DNA of 24,753 bases from a virus, in IMG/VR virus record IMGVR_UViG_3300034374_001669, positions 1-24,753 of that record; one strand, written 5' to 3'. Below are positions 11,746-14,542 of the stretch, piece after piece. How positions within the stretch are numbered: the stretch's first letter is position 1; every line of letters begins with the position of its first letter. Below the pieces are notes generated by a model. That model ran no database searches. It worked only from the letters and a program-made list of their open reading frames with translations, and was not told where the DNA came from. The position numbers were made by a program, and so were the translations under genes.

Positions 11746-12310
11746 ATCAGAAGCGATCCACAGCAAGCTGAAATCTTTCTGCTCAATTGAGCATTTGATC
11801 GAGTATTCAAAGAGCGCCCAAGCCCAGCAGTTTGTCAAGAAAGTCAGGGCCAAAGAAACCCGTGAGAAGAAGGAAAAACTCAGAACCCGCTCAGAATGGC
11901 TCAGATTGGCGCAGAAGGCGTTTAACGAGTACATAAGGGTAAGGGATAGGGGTAAGCCCTGCATCTCTTGTGGGGCCACACAGGGCGCCACAGTGCTTGG
12001 CGGGGCTTTTGACGCTGGCCACTACAGGTCAACGGGGTCTGCTCCGCATCTACGGTTCCACATCCACAACTGCCACGCCCAGTGCGTCCGATGTAACAGG
12101 CATCTTTCAGGCAATGTCGTGGAATATCGGAAGGGCTTGGTTGACCGATGTCGTCTTGAAATCGTGGAGCGTCTGGAGCAAGATGATCGGCCCCGCCACT
12201 ATACCATTCACGATTTACAGAGGATCATCAAGTTATGCAAAAGACGCACAAAAAACACGGAGAAATGTCAGAGAAATCATGCGCTTGCGGGGGAACCGCA
12301 CAAGAAGTAA
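11702..12310 (+). CDS. ninG: NinG-like recombination nuclease
   Basis: 202 residues from ATG 11702 (GGGGA about 10 nt upstream); an in-frame TTG at 11687 is less likely. The N-terminal zinc motif (RRCALCRAK...FCSIEHLIEYS), basic helical linker (KKVRAKETREKKEKLRTRSEWL) and the HNH-like core (CISCGATQGA...AGHYRSTGSAPHLRF...CHAQCVRCNRHLSGN) are diagnostic for lambda/P22 NinG (Rap), a junction-targeting endonuclease promoting recombination. It belongs functionally with the annealing protein and exonuclease upstream. The 3' end overlaps the zinc-ribbon ORF. Confidence 0.88.
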   Translation: MRTRRCALCRAKTAESEAIHSKLKSFCSIEHLIEYSKSAQAQQFVKKVRAKETREKKEKLRTRSEWLRLAQKAFNEYIRVRDRGKPCISCGATQGATVLGGAFDAGHYRSTGSAPHLRFHIHNCHAQCVRCNRHLSGNVVEYRKGLVDRCRLEIVERLEQDDRPRHYTIHDLQRIIKLCKRRTKNTEKCQRNHALAGEPHKK

Positions 12311-12399
12311 TTAAGGCACCGGATTGGGTCAGAATTGGGTGGTACTGCCCAGCTTGCAAGGGATTTGACAAAGCGATTGGAAGGGAAAGAACGGTCTGA
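12235..12399 (+). CDS. Small zinc-ribbon protein
   Basis: 54 residues from ATG 12235 (AGGA at 10-nt spacing), or 44 from the in-frame ATG at 12265, whose GGAG is too close. Two cysteine pairs, C16-x-C18 and C38-x2-C41 (SCACGG and WYCPACKG), separated by about 20 residues, form a likely zinc ribbon. Such tiny zinc proteins are frequent in phage nin-like regions. The first part overlaps NinG by 76 nt, or 46 nt with the later start. The stop runs into the A-tract of the following hairpin. Function unknown. Confidence 0.6.
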   Translation: MQKTHKKHGEMSEKSCACGGTAQEVIKAPDWVRIGWYCPACKGFDKAIGRERTV

Positions 12400-12436
12400 A
12401 AAAAAAGCCCCGGCAGGAAGGGGGTCTACCGGGGCT
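12399..12436 (-). terminator. Intrinsic terminator reading leftward
   Basis: AGCCCCGG (12406-12413) pairs with CCGGGGCT (12429-12436). On the + strand the stem is preceded by eight A (12399-12406) and followed by a T-poor stretch. Read on the - strand it is a textbook terminator: 8-bp GC stem then eight T. No - strand gene is visible, so it either ends an unseen antisense RNA or serves the + strand as a structured RNA boundary. Confidence 0.6.
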
Positions 12437-12467
12437 AACTTATTGCTTTACTTTCAAGGAGAAAAAC

Positions 12468-12506
12468 ATGAAAATGAAACTGTCGGTGGTATGTGGGAAT
12501 ACCTAA
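12468..12506 (+). CDS. 12-codon leader peptide, MKMKLSVVCGNT
   Basis: A perfect AAGGAG Shine-Dalgarno (12456-12461) is spaced 6 nt from ATG 12468, better than that of most real genes in this window, yet the frame closes after 12 codons. It opens the non-coding stretch that precedes the helicase gene. This arrangement resembles attenuator leader peptides, where ribosome position decides downstream RNA folding, but no run of regulatory codons is visible. It could also be a remnant of a lost gene. Confidence 0.45.
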   Translation: MKMKLSVVCGNT

Positions 12507-12511
12507 AATCC

Positions 12512-12604
12512 GACTAGAAGTGTAGGCGAAAGAATCAGATACCCGACGTGGGGAATTATCTGACACTTTTGCCCCCAACACAACATCTTGTGTAACTTCT
12601 AGTC
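12512..12604 (+). ncRNA. Three-way junction element
   Basis: The outer helix GACTAGAAGT/ACTTCTAGTC (12512-12521 and 12595-12604) is 10 bp and perfect. It encloses a helix of 15 pairs across 17 positions (12525-12541 with 12557-12573; one G-U wobble at 12528/12570 and a two-base internal loop) and a perfect 6-bp hairpin ACACAA-CATC-TTGTGT (12578-12593). The wobble would become a C-A mismatch on the opposite strand, so the + strand is the folded one. Confidence 0.75.
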
Positions 12605-12921
12605 AAACTTACCTACATATACCACTGACCAGTGTGGCAAAGCCTGACTGTCAACTCTGGCTCATGGAAAGCTATATCCTGAAATGTAGCCCCGGAAACG
12701 GGCGAATCGAGCATCCAAAACGCCTGCGCTGACCCGCCCATGTCAACAGGCACCCGCGAAACCAGTAACTGGACGGGATGCGAGATAGGCAACCCAGCCG
12801 TAAGGCTGGCGGGAGATCGGTTCACCACTGTGGATCGGGGAATGAGTATCTAGTCTACGGACTACCGGGGTCACCCGGACGCGAGAGAGCCTCCAGCGCC
12901 ACTGGACTTTCGCGGGAGAAA

Positions 12922-12930
12922 ATGGGCTAA
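12922..12930 (+). other. Two-codon upstream ORF (ATG GGC TAA)
   Basis: GGGAG (12914-12918) lies 3 nt before ATG GGC TAA, 18 nt before the helicase ATG. The layout GGAGAAAATG here is nearly repeated at the helicase start (GGAGAAAACATG). Such minimal ORFs can stall or queue ribosomes. It also overlaps sequences able to pair with the upstream RNA (ATGGGC with GCCCAT at 12736-12741). Confidence 0.35.
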
Positions 12931-12947
12931 CTTTGTCTGGAGAAAAC

Positions 12948-14429
12948 ATGGAACTGAGAGAACACCAAGAAAAAGCAATCGAAATGATCCGCGAAGCCTT
13001 CAGGGAGGGCCACAAAAAGGTTCTGCTGGCGGCTTGCTGTAGTTTCGGAAAAACACACACTGCGGCCTTCATGGCCAAGCAGGCTATGGACAGTGGCCGC
13101 AAAGTGGCTTTCTTTGCCGACAGGGTTCGGCTGGTCAGCCAGACGCTCAAAGTCTTTGACGAATGGGGCATCCACTATGGTGTCCAGCAGGCCGATCACT
13201 GGGCGGCTGATCCCAAAGCCCCAGTGCAGATTTGTTCTGTACAAACGATAACACGCCGTGGCTATGACCGGCTGGACTTTGAACTAGCGATCTGGGATGA
13301 GTGCCATGTCCCGTGGAAGTCTCTAACCGAGATGATGGCGAAGTGGGACGGCCCCAAGATGCACTTTGTCGGCCTGTCAGCCACGCCTTACAGTAAAGGG
13401 TTGGGACTCATTTGGGATAAGATGATCGTCCCGGTGCGCCAAGCGGAGTTGCTGGAGCAGGGTTACTTGGCCCCCGTACACTATTATGGCGGCAGGAGCG
13501 TTGACGTAAGCAAGCTGAGAACAAAGGCGCTGGGAACGGGGGGATCAGACTATGATCCGGACGCTCTGGCAGAGGCTGTAGAGGCCGATGACAAGCTGAC
13601 CGGGGACATCGTCAGGAACTGGCTTGAACACGGCGAGAACGCCCAGACAATCGCTTTCAGCCCCAGCATCAAGCATTCCGAGTTCATGGTCAAGATGTTC
13701 AACGATCACGGCATCCCAGCCCGCCATATTGACGGATATACCAAAGAGAAGGAACGCAAAGAAATCTACCGGGCGCATGAGGCCGGCGAGTTTAAGATAC
13801 TGTCCTGCTCTAAGTTGCTGGGAGTAGGCTACGACAGCCCGCAGACCAGATGTTTGATTGATTGCTACGGCACGAAGTCAGCCATCGCGTACCAGCAACG
13901 GGCGGGCAGAATCCAACGTACCCACCCTGACAAACCCTATGGCATCTATCTTGATCATAGTGGCAACGTAAACAGGTTCGGCTTTGCGCACCTGATGGAG
14001 CCATCTGAACTGGACATGAAGGAAAAGCGCTTCAGCGAAGCAGGCCAGATCGAGAAGAAGGAAAAGAAGGACGATGTGGTCAGGGACTGCCCCCGGTGCG
14101 GCAAGATCATGCAGGGGCTTTCCTGTGTCTGCGGTTTCAAGATCACCATCAGGGAGGCGCTGGAGTCAGACGGAACCATGCTGGTCAAGCTGGACGACAG
14201 CAAGCCACAGCAGGTCAGTAAGGAAACCAAGTCGCTCTGGATGGCATCGCTTTCTAAGTACGGAAAGGAACAGGGCTATAAAGACGGCTGGGCGGCGTGG
14301 ACTTACAAGAAGAAGTTCGGTGTCTGGCCCCGGAGTCTGGACAGGGTGAGAGTGGAAACTGTCCCGCCAGAGGTAATAAATTTCATCATTTCGCGAAATA
14401 TTGCTAACGCAAAAAGAAAAAGATACTAA
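12948..14429 (+). CDS. SF2 DEAD/DEAH-like helicase
   Basis: 493 residues from ATG 12948 (TGGAG, 6-nt spacing); an in-frame TTG at 12933 is less likely. Helicase motifs: a Walker A variant CSFGKT (31-36), Walker B DECH (117-120), SATP (144-147), and QQRAGRIQR (316-324) as motif VI with its arginine. A four-cysteine zinc finger follows (C381, C384, C393, C395), then a C-terminal GYKDGWAAWTYKKKFGVWP segment also found at the ends of other phage replication proteins. The architecture is UvsW/type III restriction-like SF2, probably unwinding or remodelling DNA during replication or recombination. It is preceded by a long structured leader, so expression may be RNA-controlled. Confidence 0.88.
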   Translation: MELREHQEKAIEMIREAFREGHKKVLLAACCSFGKTHTAAFMAKQAMDSGRKVAFFADRVRLVSQTLKVFDEWGIHYGVQQADHWAADPKAPVQICSVQTITRRGYDRLDFELAIWDECHVPWKSLTEMMAKWDGPKMHFVGLSATPYSKGLGLIWDKMIVPVRQAELLEQGYLAPVHYYGGRSVDVSKLRTKALGTGGSDYDPDALAEAVEADDKLTGDIVRNWLEHGENAQTIAFSPSIKHSEFMVKMFNDHGIPARHIDGYTKEKERKEIYRAHEAGEFKILSCSKLLGVGYDSPQTRCLIDCYGTKSAIAYQQRAGRIQRTHPDKPYGIYLDHSGNVNRFGFAHLMEPSELDMKEKRFSEAGQIEKKEKKDDVVRDCPRCGKIMQGLSCVCGFKITIREALESDGTMLVKLDDSKPQQVSKETKSLWMASLSKYGKEQGYKDGWAAWTYKKKFGVWPRSLDRVRVETVPPEVINFIISRNIANAKRKRY

Positions 14430-14468: not shown

Positions 14469-14503
14469 TTGACATAGGTCAACAAAGGATTAGAATACTA
14501 ATC
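14469..14503 (+). promoter_or_regulatory. Promoter P2 with two dyads
   Basis: TTGACA (14469-14474), 16-bp spacer, TAGAAT (14491-14496). The -35 lies in the dyad TTGAC-ATAG-GTCAA (14469-14482), identical to that at 8711. The -10 lies in a second perfect dyad GATTAG-AATA-CTAATC (14488-14503) that reaches the expected start site. This looks like a repressible early promoter for the small-gene block downstream. Confidence 0.75.
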
Positions 14504-14542
14504 ATGGAAGCAAATGAGTGTTTCCTGAAACGGAGAAAAATA

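Follow-up and report, generated by a model that had tools for sequence, protein, structure and literature searches.

A conserved, pseudoknotted non-coding RNA family at the head of a helicase operon in uncultured phages

The window, meaning the whole stretch of DNA analysed, comprised 24,753 nucleotides of IMG/VR record IMGVR_UViG_3300034374_001669 (24.7 kb), which by gene content represents a podovirus-like phage. Tail fibre and virion genes are followed by recombination genes (YqaJ-type exonuclease, Sak-like annealing protein, NinB-like, NinG), the RNA described here, a helicase, an endolysin, small and large terminase, and a P22-like portal and scaffold. A gammaproteobacterial host is likely, because the portal and terminase were nearest (approximately 40–48%) to those of phages of Vibrio, Pseudoalteromonas, Pseudomonas and enterobacteria; the host itself was not shown. 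A strong promoter-like sequence (TTGACA-16-TAGAAT, 11/12) was noted at 14469-14496, just past the helicase and 8 nt 5' of the ORF at 14504, and may uncouple helicase transcription from the late genes.

Between the stop of a 54-residue zinc-ribbon ORF and the helicase start codon lies a gap of 549 nt (12399-12947). The ORF list contains no normal ORF in this interval, in line with the initial annotation, which had reported about 550 nt without a normal gene before the helicase. The features of the locus were as follows.

12235-12399: zinc-ribbon ORF, 54 amino acids, upstream of the gap
12406-12436, no strand assigned: terminator-type hairpin (AGCCCCGG...CCGGGGCT), end of the upstream operon
12447-12475, + strand: promoter-like element TTTACT-17-GAAAAT (8/12), recognized by comparison with relatives
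12482-12935, + strand: structured RNA of approximately 445 nt; 3' boundary approximate, last covarying base 12927
12939-14429, + strand: helicase gene (ResIII/Helicase_C), ATG at 12948, SD GGAG at 12939-12942; first gene 3' of the RNA in the window phage

The structured region had originally been drawn across the whole of 12400-12947. Structured RNA was found there, but its extent was reduced, since the segments 12406-12436 and 12447-12475 correspond to a terminator-type hairpin and a promoter-like element, respectively; the RNA runs from approximately 12482 to 12927-12935. An SD-like AAGGAG with a short ORF (MKMKLSVVCGNT) at 12455-12507 overlaps the promoter region and the 5' end of the RNA. 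Similar short ORFs were seen in loci L002-L004 and were not family-wide.

Folding of the + strand of 12482-12924 gave a z score of −7.4 relative to dinucleotide shuffles, and two coding controls of approximately equal length gave −1.3 and +1.3. For 12400-12947 the z score was −6.5 on the + strand and −4.2 on the − strand. The tetraloop hairpins listed in the initial annotation were present at their coordinates within an interval that thus folds beyond chance.

Relatives were collected by searching IMG/VR with the helicase protein, which returned 63 loci. DNA just upstream of the helicase matched the window RNA on the + strand in about 30 of these. The family was then extended with a profile of those matches and with conserved-motif searches independent of the helicase, giving 102 hits (approximately 75 distinct sequences) from uncultured viral contigs, at the same operon boundary. 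For covariation analysis, 34 divergent members were aligned by sequence only (alignment A2). Helices were picked by eye and subsequently tested. The resulting model comprised 13 helices, among which four interactions cross (PK1, PK2, Pa x Pb and PK3). The predicted elements, all on the + strand, are given below from 5' to 3'.

12482-12629: variable 5' domain
12482-12486 (GTCGG) with 12510-12514 (CCGAC), or alternatively with 12622-12629 (CCACTGAC): P1
12512-12520 (GACTAGAAG) with 12596-12604 (CTTCTAGTC): long stem of the 5' domain
12630-12662: PK1 pseudoknot, CAGT (12630-12633) with ACTG (12647-12650), interlocked with AGCC (12641-12644) paired to GGCT (12659-12662); 98% and 97% of cells paired
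12666-12690: PK2 pseudoknot, GGA (12666-12668) with TCC (12677-12679), interlocked with GCTA (12671-12674) paired to TAGC (12687-12690); helices 3 and 4 of the column test
12691-12702: H3 hairpin CCCG-GAAA-CGGG, with the GAAA loop in every aligned member
12711-12781: Pa helix, GCATCC (12711-12716) with GGATGC (12776-12781), crossing Pb; supported by covariation
12723-12750: H4 hairpin CCTGCGCTGAC-CCGCCCAT-GTCAACAGG, whose loop forms PK3; column-test helices 7 and 8
12736-12927: PK3, H4 loop GCCCAT (12736-12741) with the 3' end ATGGGC (12922-12927); column-test helix 9
12753-12916: Pb long-range helix, CCCGCGAAA (12753-12761) with TTTCGCGGG (12908-12916); double changes in 7/8 pairs
12762-12772: variable hairpin CCAG-TAA-CTGG; relatives have a different hairpin or none
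12794-12809: variable hairpin CCAGCC-GTAA-GGCTGG
12818-12837: H5 hairpin CGGTTCAC-CACT-GTGGATCG; column-test helix 11
12844-12850: near-invariant GAGTATC junction (family form GAGTAYC), with AGTA in all sequences of alignment A2
12851-12864: H6 hairpin TAGTC-TACG-GACTA, directly abutting H7
12865-12878: H7 hairpin CCGGGGTCACCCGG
12893-12905: variable hairpin CCAGCGCCACTGG

In L227 and L231 a short hairpin takes the place of the 5' domain. In many members, the PK3 strand could alternatively form a local hairpin with the bases that follow it (GGGC...GCCT, GACG...CGTC; by eye), a possible switch that was not present in all members.

In the column test, 92.2% of cells were paired across all 13 helices, compared with 77.5 ± 0.5% after shuffling, and pairing fell to 32–43% when the partner was slid by one to three columns. 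Double-change cells numbered 295, a value reached in 0/500 shuffles, against 89 ± 8 in shuffled alignments, and 41 of the 64 pairs carried a double change. H6 and H7 were 99% and 100% paired, with double changes in 8/9 pairs. Native arms paired better than arms taken from other sequences in 12/13 helices (for example Pa, 0.92 native versus 0.68 swapped; H7, 1.00 versus 0.75); the exception, PK1-S1, was distorted by an alignment gap. Pairing was restored among variants of Pa (GCATCC/GGATGC, ACGACC/GGTCGC, ACACTC/GAGTGT), Pb (CCGCGAAA/TTTCGCGG, CCGGAAAC/ATTTCCGG, CCATAGAG/CTCTATGG) and PK3 (CCCAT/ATGGG, CCCTT/AAGGG, GCCTT/AAGGC, and CCCGTCT/AGACGGG in L010 and relatives). RNAalifold, which is blind to the model and cannot draw pseudoknots, found Pb, H4, H5, H6, H7 and parts of PK1 and PK2.

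Two caveats apply: the helices were found and tested on one sequence set, and the sequences, being related, do not count as independent. Both the slid control and RNAalifold, which agrees with the model, speak against an artefact. Covariation among relatives, together with the better folding of the + strand, upholds the + strand non-coding RNA proposed in the initial annotation, and the covariation is regarded as decisive. That a real structured RNA family is present is held to be practically certain. Comparison shows a compact core in which 13 helices covary and four interactions cross, together with an exchangeable 5' domain. The check originally suggested, covariation in homologous upstream regions, thus yielded compensatory changes. 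The local helices first read from the window are real, but several cross one another as pseudoknots, which were invisible to a reader of local hairpins. A protein-coding reading of the gap was rejected: there was no conserved ORF, and the indels and compensatory changes fit RNA.

Searches for a known identity were negative. No gathering-level match to Rfam 15 was found in the window, and the weak matches in the region were not meaningful; the ar14 and anti-hemB matches (− strand, E approximately 0.002) lay over the terminator hairpin, far below gathering scores, and were rejected. Ten diverse relatives had no Rfam match at E values up to 1. The earlier failure to recognize a known RNA family therefore stands. 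No DNA relative was present in a collection of 50,697 annotated or isolate phage records, and no member was found in 84,980 bacterial species genomes searched with one motif carried by many members. Pattern matches in species genomes (L237, L238) were not family members. A literature search returned no description of this RNA; anonymous candidate lists of viral RNAs in subscription papers may include it. In Pelagibacter phage Baldr, Vibrio phage 1.233.A and Pseudomonas phage YA3, the helicase has annotated genes close upstream. In Pseudomonas phage PS-1 (L067 1882-2494), a 613-nt gap without an annotated gene separates Cro from a related helicase.

Group I introns contain a P3/P7 crossing, which the Pa x Pb crossing recalls, and a self-cleaving or self-splicing ribozyme, such as a divergent group I-like intron, was considered on that ground. 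However, no Rfam intron or ribozyme was matched in the window or in the ten diverse loci, no gene is split on either side (both flanking ORFs are whole) and a promoter-like element stands directly at the 5' end. A ribozyme is accordingly given very little weight. HEARO (RF02033) and OMEGA RNAs resemble the present RNA in being structured and directly 5' of an ORF, but there was no Rfam match, and in place of IscB/IsrB the partners here are genes of helicase, MazG-like or zinc-ribbon type.

Further groups were found at the equivalent site in other relatives. Subtype E, on another branch, was recovered in approximately 20 contigs via the helicase (L036-L058 in the helicase-distance comparison) and in 26 stretches via its own motif. 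It gave no sequence match to the profile of subtype A, the type found in the window, and its single-sequence fold z score was only −1.1, so that support for E is comparative. Subtype E nevertheless has the PK2 pseudoknot with the same linker (A: ATGCC-GAGCTG-GGGC-TTTAAA-CAGC; E: ATGCC-ACCA-A-GGC-TTTAAAC-TGG), and by eye both PK2 stems covary inside E (GTC/GAC, GCC/GGC; CCA/TGG, CTAC/GTAG, CCAC/GTGG). Because they share this arrangement and linker, with stems covarying in E, A and E are probably distant homologues, which falls short of proof. Groups C (L020, L021) and D (L022-L024) are gene-free stretches of approximately 450 nt upstream of the helicase, without sequence match to A or E; their fold z scores were −4.1 and −0.4, respectively, and both groups were left unassigned. 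In L041 (97-600), an E-type 5' domain is followed downstream by another stretch, and the latter has 'GGCGGC..AAGTCGTAATCA' in common with the D-group region (L022-L024), possibly through a domain swap between RNA subtypes.

The 5' boundary was defined by comparison. The upstream terminator-type hairpin is bidirectional with a T-run in several relatives; the window keeps only the A-run side, and intact + strand terminators occur at this hairpin in L030, L105, L019 and others. The window copy of the promoter-like element is weak and, taken alone, falls under the scanner threshold. Many relatives have good hexamers at the equivalent site (for example TTGCAA-17-TAGAAT and TTGAAA-17-TATCAT), and in nearly all members 5–8 nt separate the end of a sigma-70-like −10 box from the conserved 5' end, which reads GTCGG in A and TGTTGG in E. 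It is strongly suggested that the RNA has a sigma-70-type promoter of its own, from which it would start where the recombination/nin operon gives way to the helicase operon. No convincing terminator followed the RNA in any member examined, and among all of them there was one weak terminator-like match, in L199. Because no terminator follows, continued transcription into the helicase operon is also strongly suggested.

Wherever it was visible, the helicase lay downstream on the same strand, at a distance of 8 nt to 2.7 kb. A leader or riboswitch specific to the helicase, one of the roles first proposed, would suit the window and the many relatives in which the helicase ATG is close behind the RNA. 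Other genes intervene in about half of the loci, however, over up to 2.7 kb, and the RNA is kept. The next gene is the helicase in the window, MazG-like in L006 (own reading), a zinc ribbon in L098, L111 and L180, an unknown of 122 amino acids in L149, and nuclease-like in much of the E group (own reading). Nor does the zinc-ribbon gene keep to one side of the RNA: 19 loci have it upstream and 26 have it downstream. These changing neighbours contradict the gene-specific reading, which is largely refuted and is the least probable of those considered. Comparison across loci shows a conserved phage RNA family that is non-coding, is not an mRNA and is not bound to any single gene, since the next gene differs among relatives.

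The position beside replication genes raised a further reading, in which a structured transcript would prime or license phage DNA replication. The RNA adjoins the helicase and, in some relatives, primase-like genes (own reading of ORFs). Against this, there was no GC-skew turn at 12.4 kb, the conservation is that of RNA pairing with compensatory changes, and there was no positive evidence; an origin-linked RNA is considered highly unlikely.

Only a handful of large, ornate RNAs are known from phages. GOLLD and ROOL form RNA-only cages, which surprised the field, and GOLLD is often found near tRNAs or tRNA islands. GOLLD is a large, highly structured RNA of phages and prophages, of unknown function, in which the 3' region is conserved and the 5' region less so (PMC12286853). 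The present RNA likewise has a strongly conserved 3' core and a variable 5' domain, but gave no match to the Rfam model (RF02032) even at relaxed E-values, is approximately 445 nt compared with >800 for GOLLD, and is located where two operons meet, 5' of a helicase. ROOL is a large phage RNA with complex secondary structure, multiple pseudoknots and no known function (PMC12286853). Phage location and multiple pseudoknots are met here also, as a trait of the kind and not as proof of membership; the RNA did not match the ROOL model (RF03087), is shorter than the 659-nt ROOL example, and occupies another locus without a tRNA island in the window. No tRNA was found in the 24.7-kb window (relatives were not scanned), whereas many GOLLD and ROOL loci have tRNAs. 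The RNA is a new family within this known kind of large ornate phage RNAs, since it has no match in Rfam, the phage collection or the species genomes.

Two modes of action were principally weighed. In the first, inferred by analogy with GOLLD and ROOL, the folded RNA, whether freed from the transcript by processing or left as its 5' part, would itself act in the infected cell as a large RNA with a structural or regulatory role. A processed, stand-alone form would explain why the RNA is large, why its core is knotted, why the 5' domain can be exchanged and why the neighbours change. It is further supported by a −10 box that in nearly all members stands 5–8 nt ahead of the conserved 5' end, by retention of the RNA while the next gene changes, and by possible second promoters between the RNA and the first gene in L042/L046/L047 and L215 (TTTACA-17-TACGAT, TTGACT-17-CAATAT; by eye). 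On the other side, no convincing terminator follows the RNA in the members examined, an SD-preceded ORF starts within approximately 75 nt of it in 77/88 loci, as a 5' leader would have it, every helicase in view lies downstream and shares the strand, the tRNAs of many GOLLD/ROOL loci are lacking in the window, and neither a processing site nor a transcript was seen.

In the second, the RNA would act in cis as the leader of the entire helicase/replication operon, the fold of the nascent transcript altering RNA polymerase by processive antitermination or shielding the mRNA, whatever the first gene. The put RNAs of HK022, roughly 70-nt pairs of simple hairpins, act by processive antitermination at or near the start of early transcripts, and the present RNA could conceivably act in cis on a whole operon too. 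A put-type RNA would stand at the start of an operon transcript; the observations here, without transcript data, are a promoter-like element 5–8 nt upstream and no terminator behind the RNA. A cis leader explains that missing terminator and the constant position, and it agrees with the inferred +1, the usual closeness of the next ORF and the shared direction of RNA and helicase wherever the helicase is visible; PK3 uses the extreme 3' end, and the alternative local hairpin in several members would suit a co-transcriptional switch. However, that hairpin is absent from some members, two lineages may have second promoters behind the RNA, and downstream terminator-like sites were at chance level (15 versus 11.1 ± 3.7). 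Known antitermination RNAs are also far smaller and less knotted than this RNA, with its approximately 445 nt and four crossing interactions. A cis leader is not excluded, because no terminator follows the RNA, and remains a possibility of lower standing. The RNA acting in its own right, in the manner of GOLLD or ROOL and preferably as a processed stand-alone form, is favoured tentatively at slightly under an even chance; its function is inferred and no transcript was seen.

More speculatively, and with rather less confidence, the RNAs may constitute a new superfamily with a multi-pseudoknot core, swappable 5' domains and at least two subtypes (A and E, possibly including C and D), held at one locus across an uncultured phage lineage for a dedicated job (assembly, catalysis or control of RNA polymerase) unlike that of any known RNA family.

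The family would add a further large phage RNA beside GOLLD and ROOL, with a well-supported, heavily pseudoknotted core of approximately 300 nt that is small enough for structure work. Approximately 75 divergent sequences are available, the natural 5'-domain replacements show what the core is, and the constant location at the head of the helicase operon makes the role of such RNAs directly testable.
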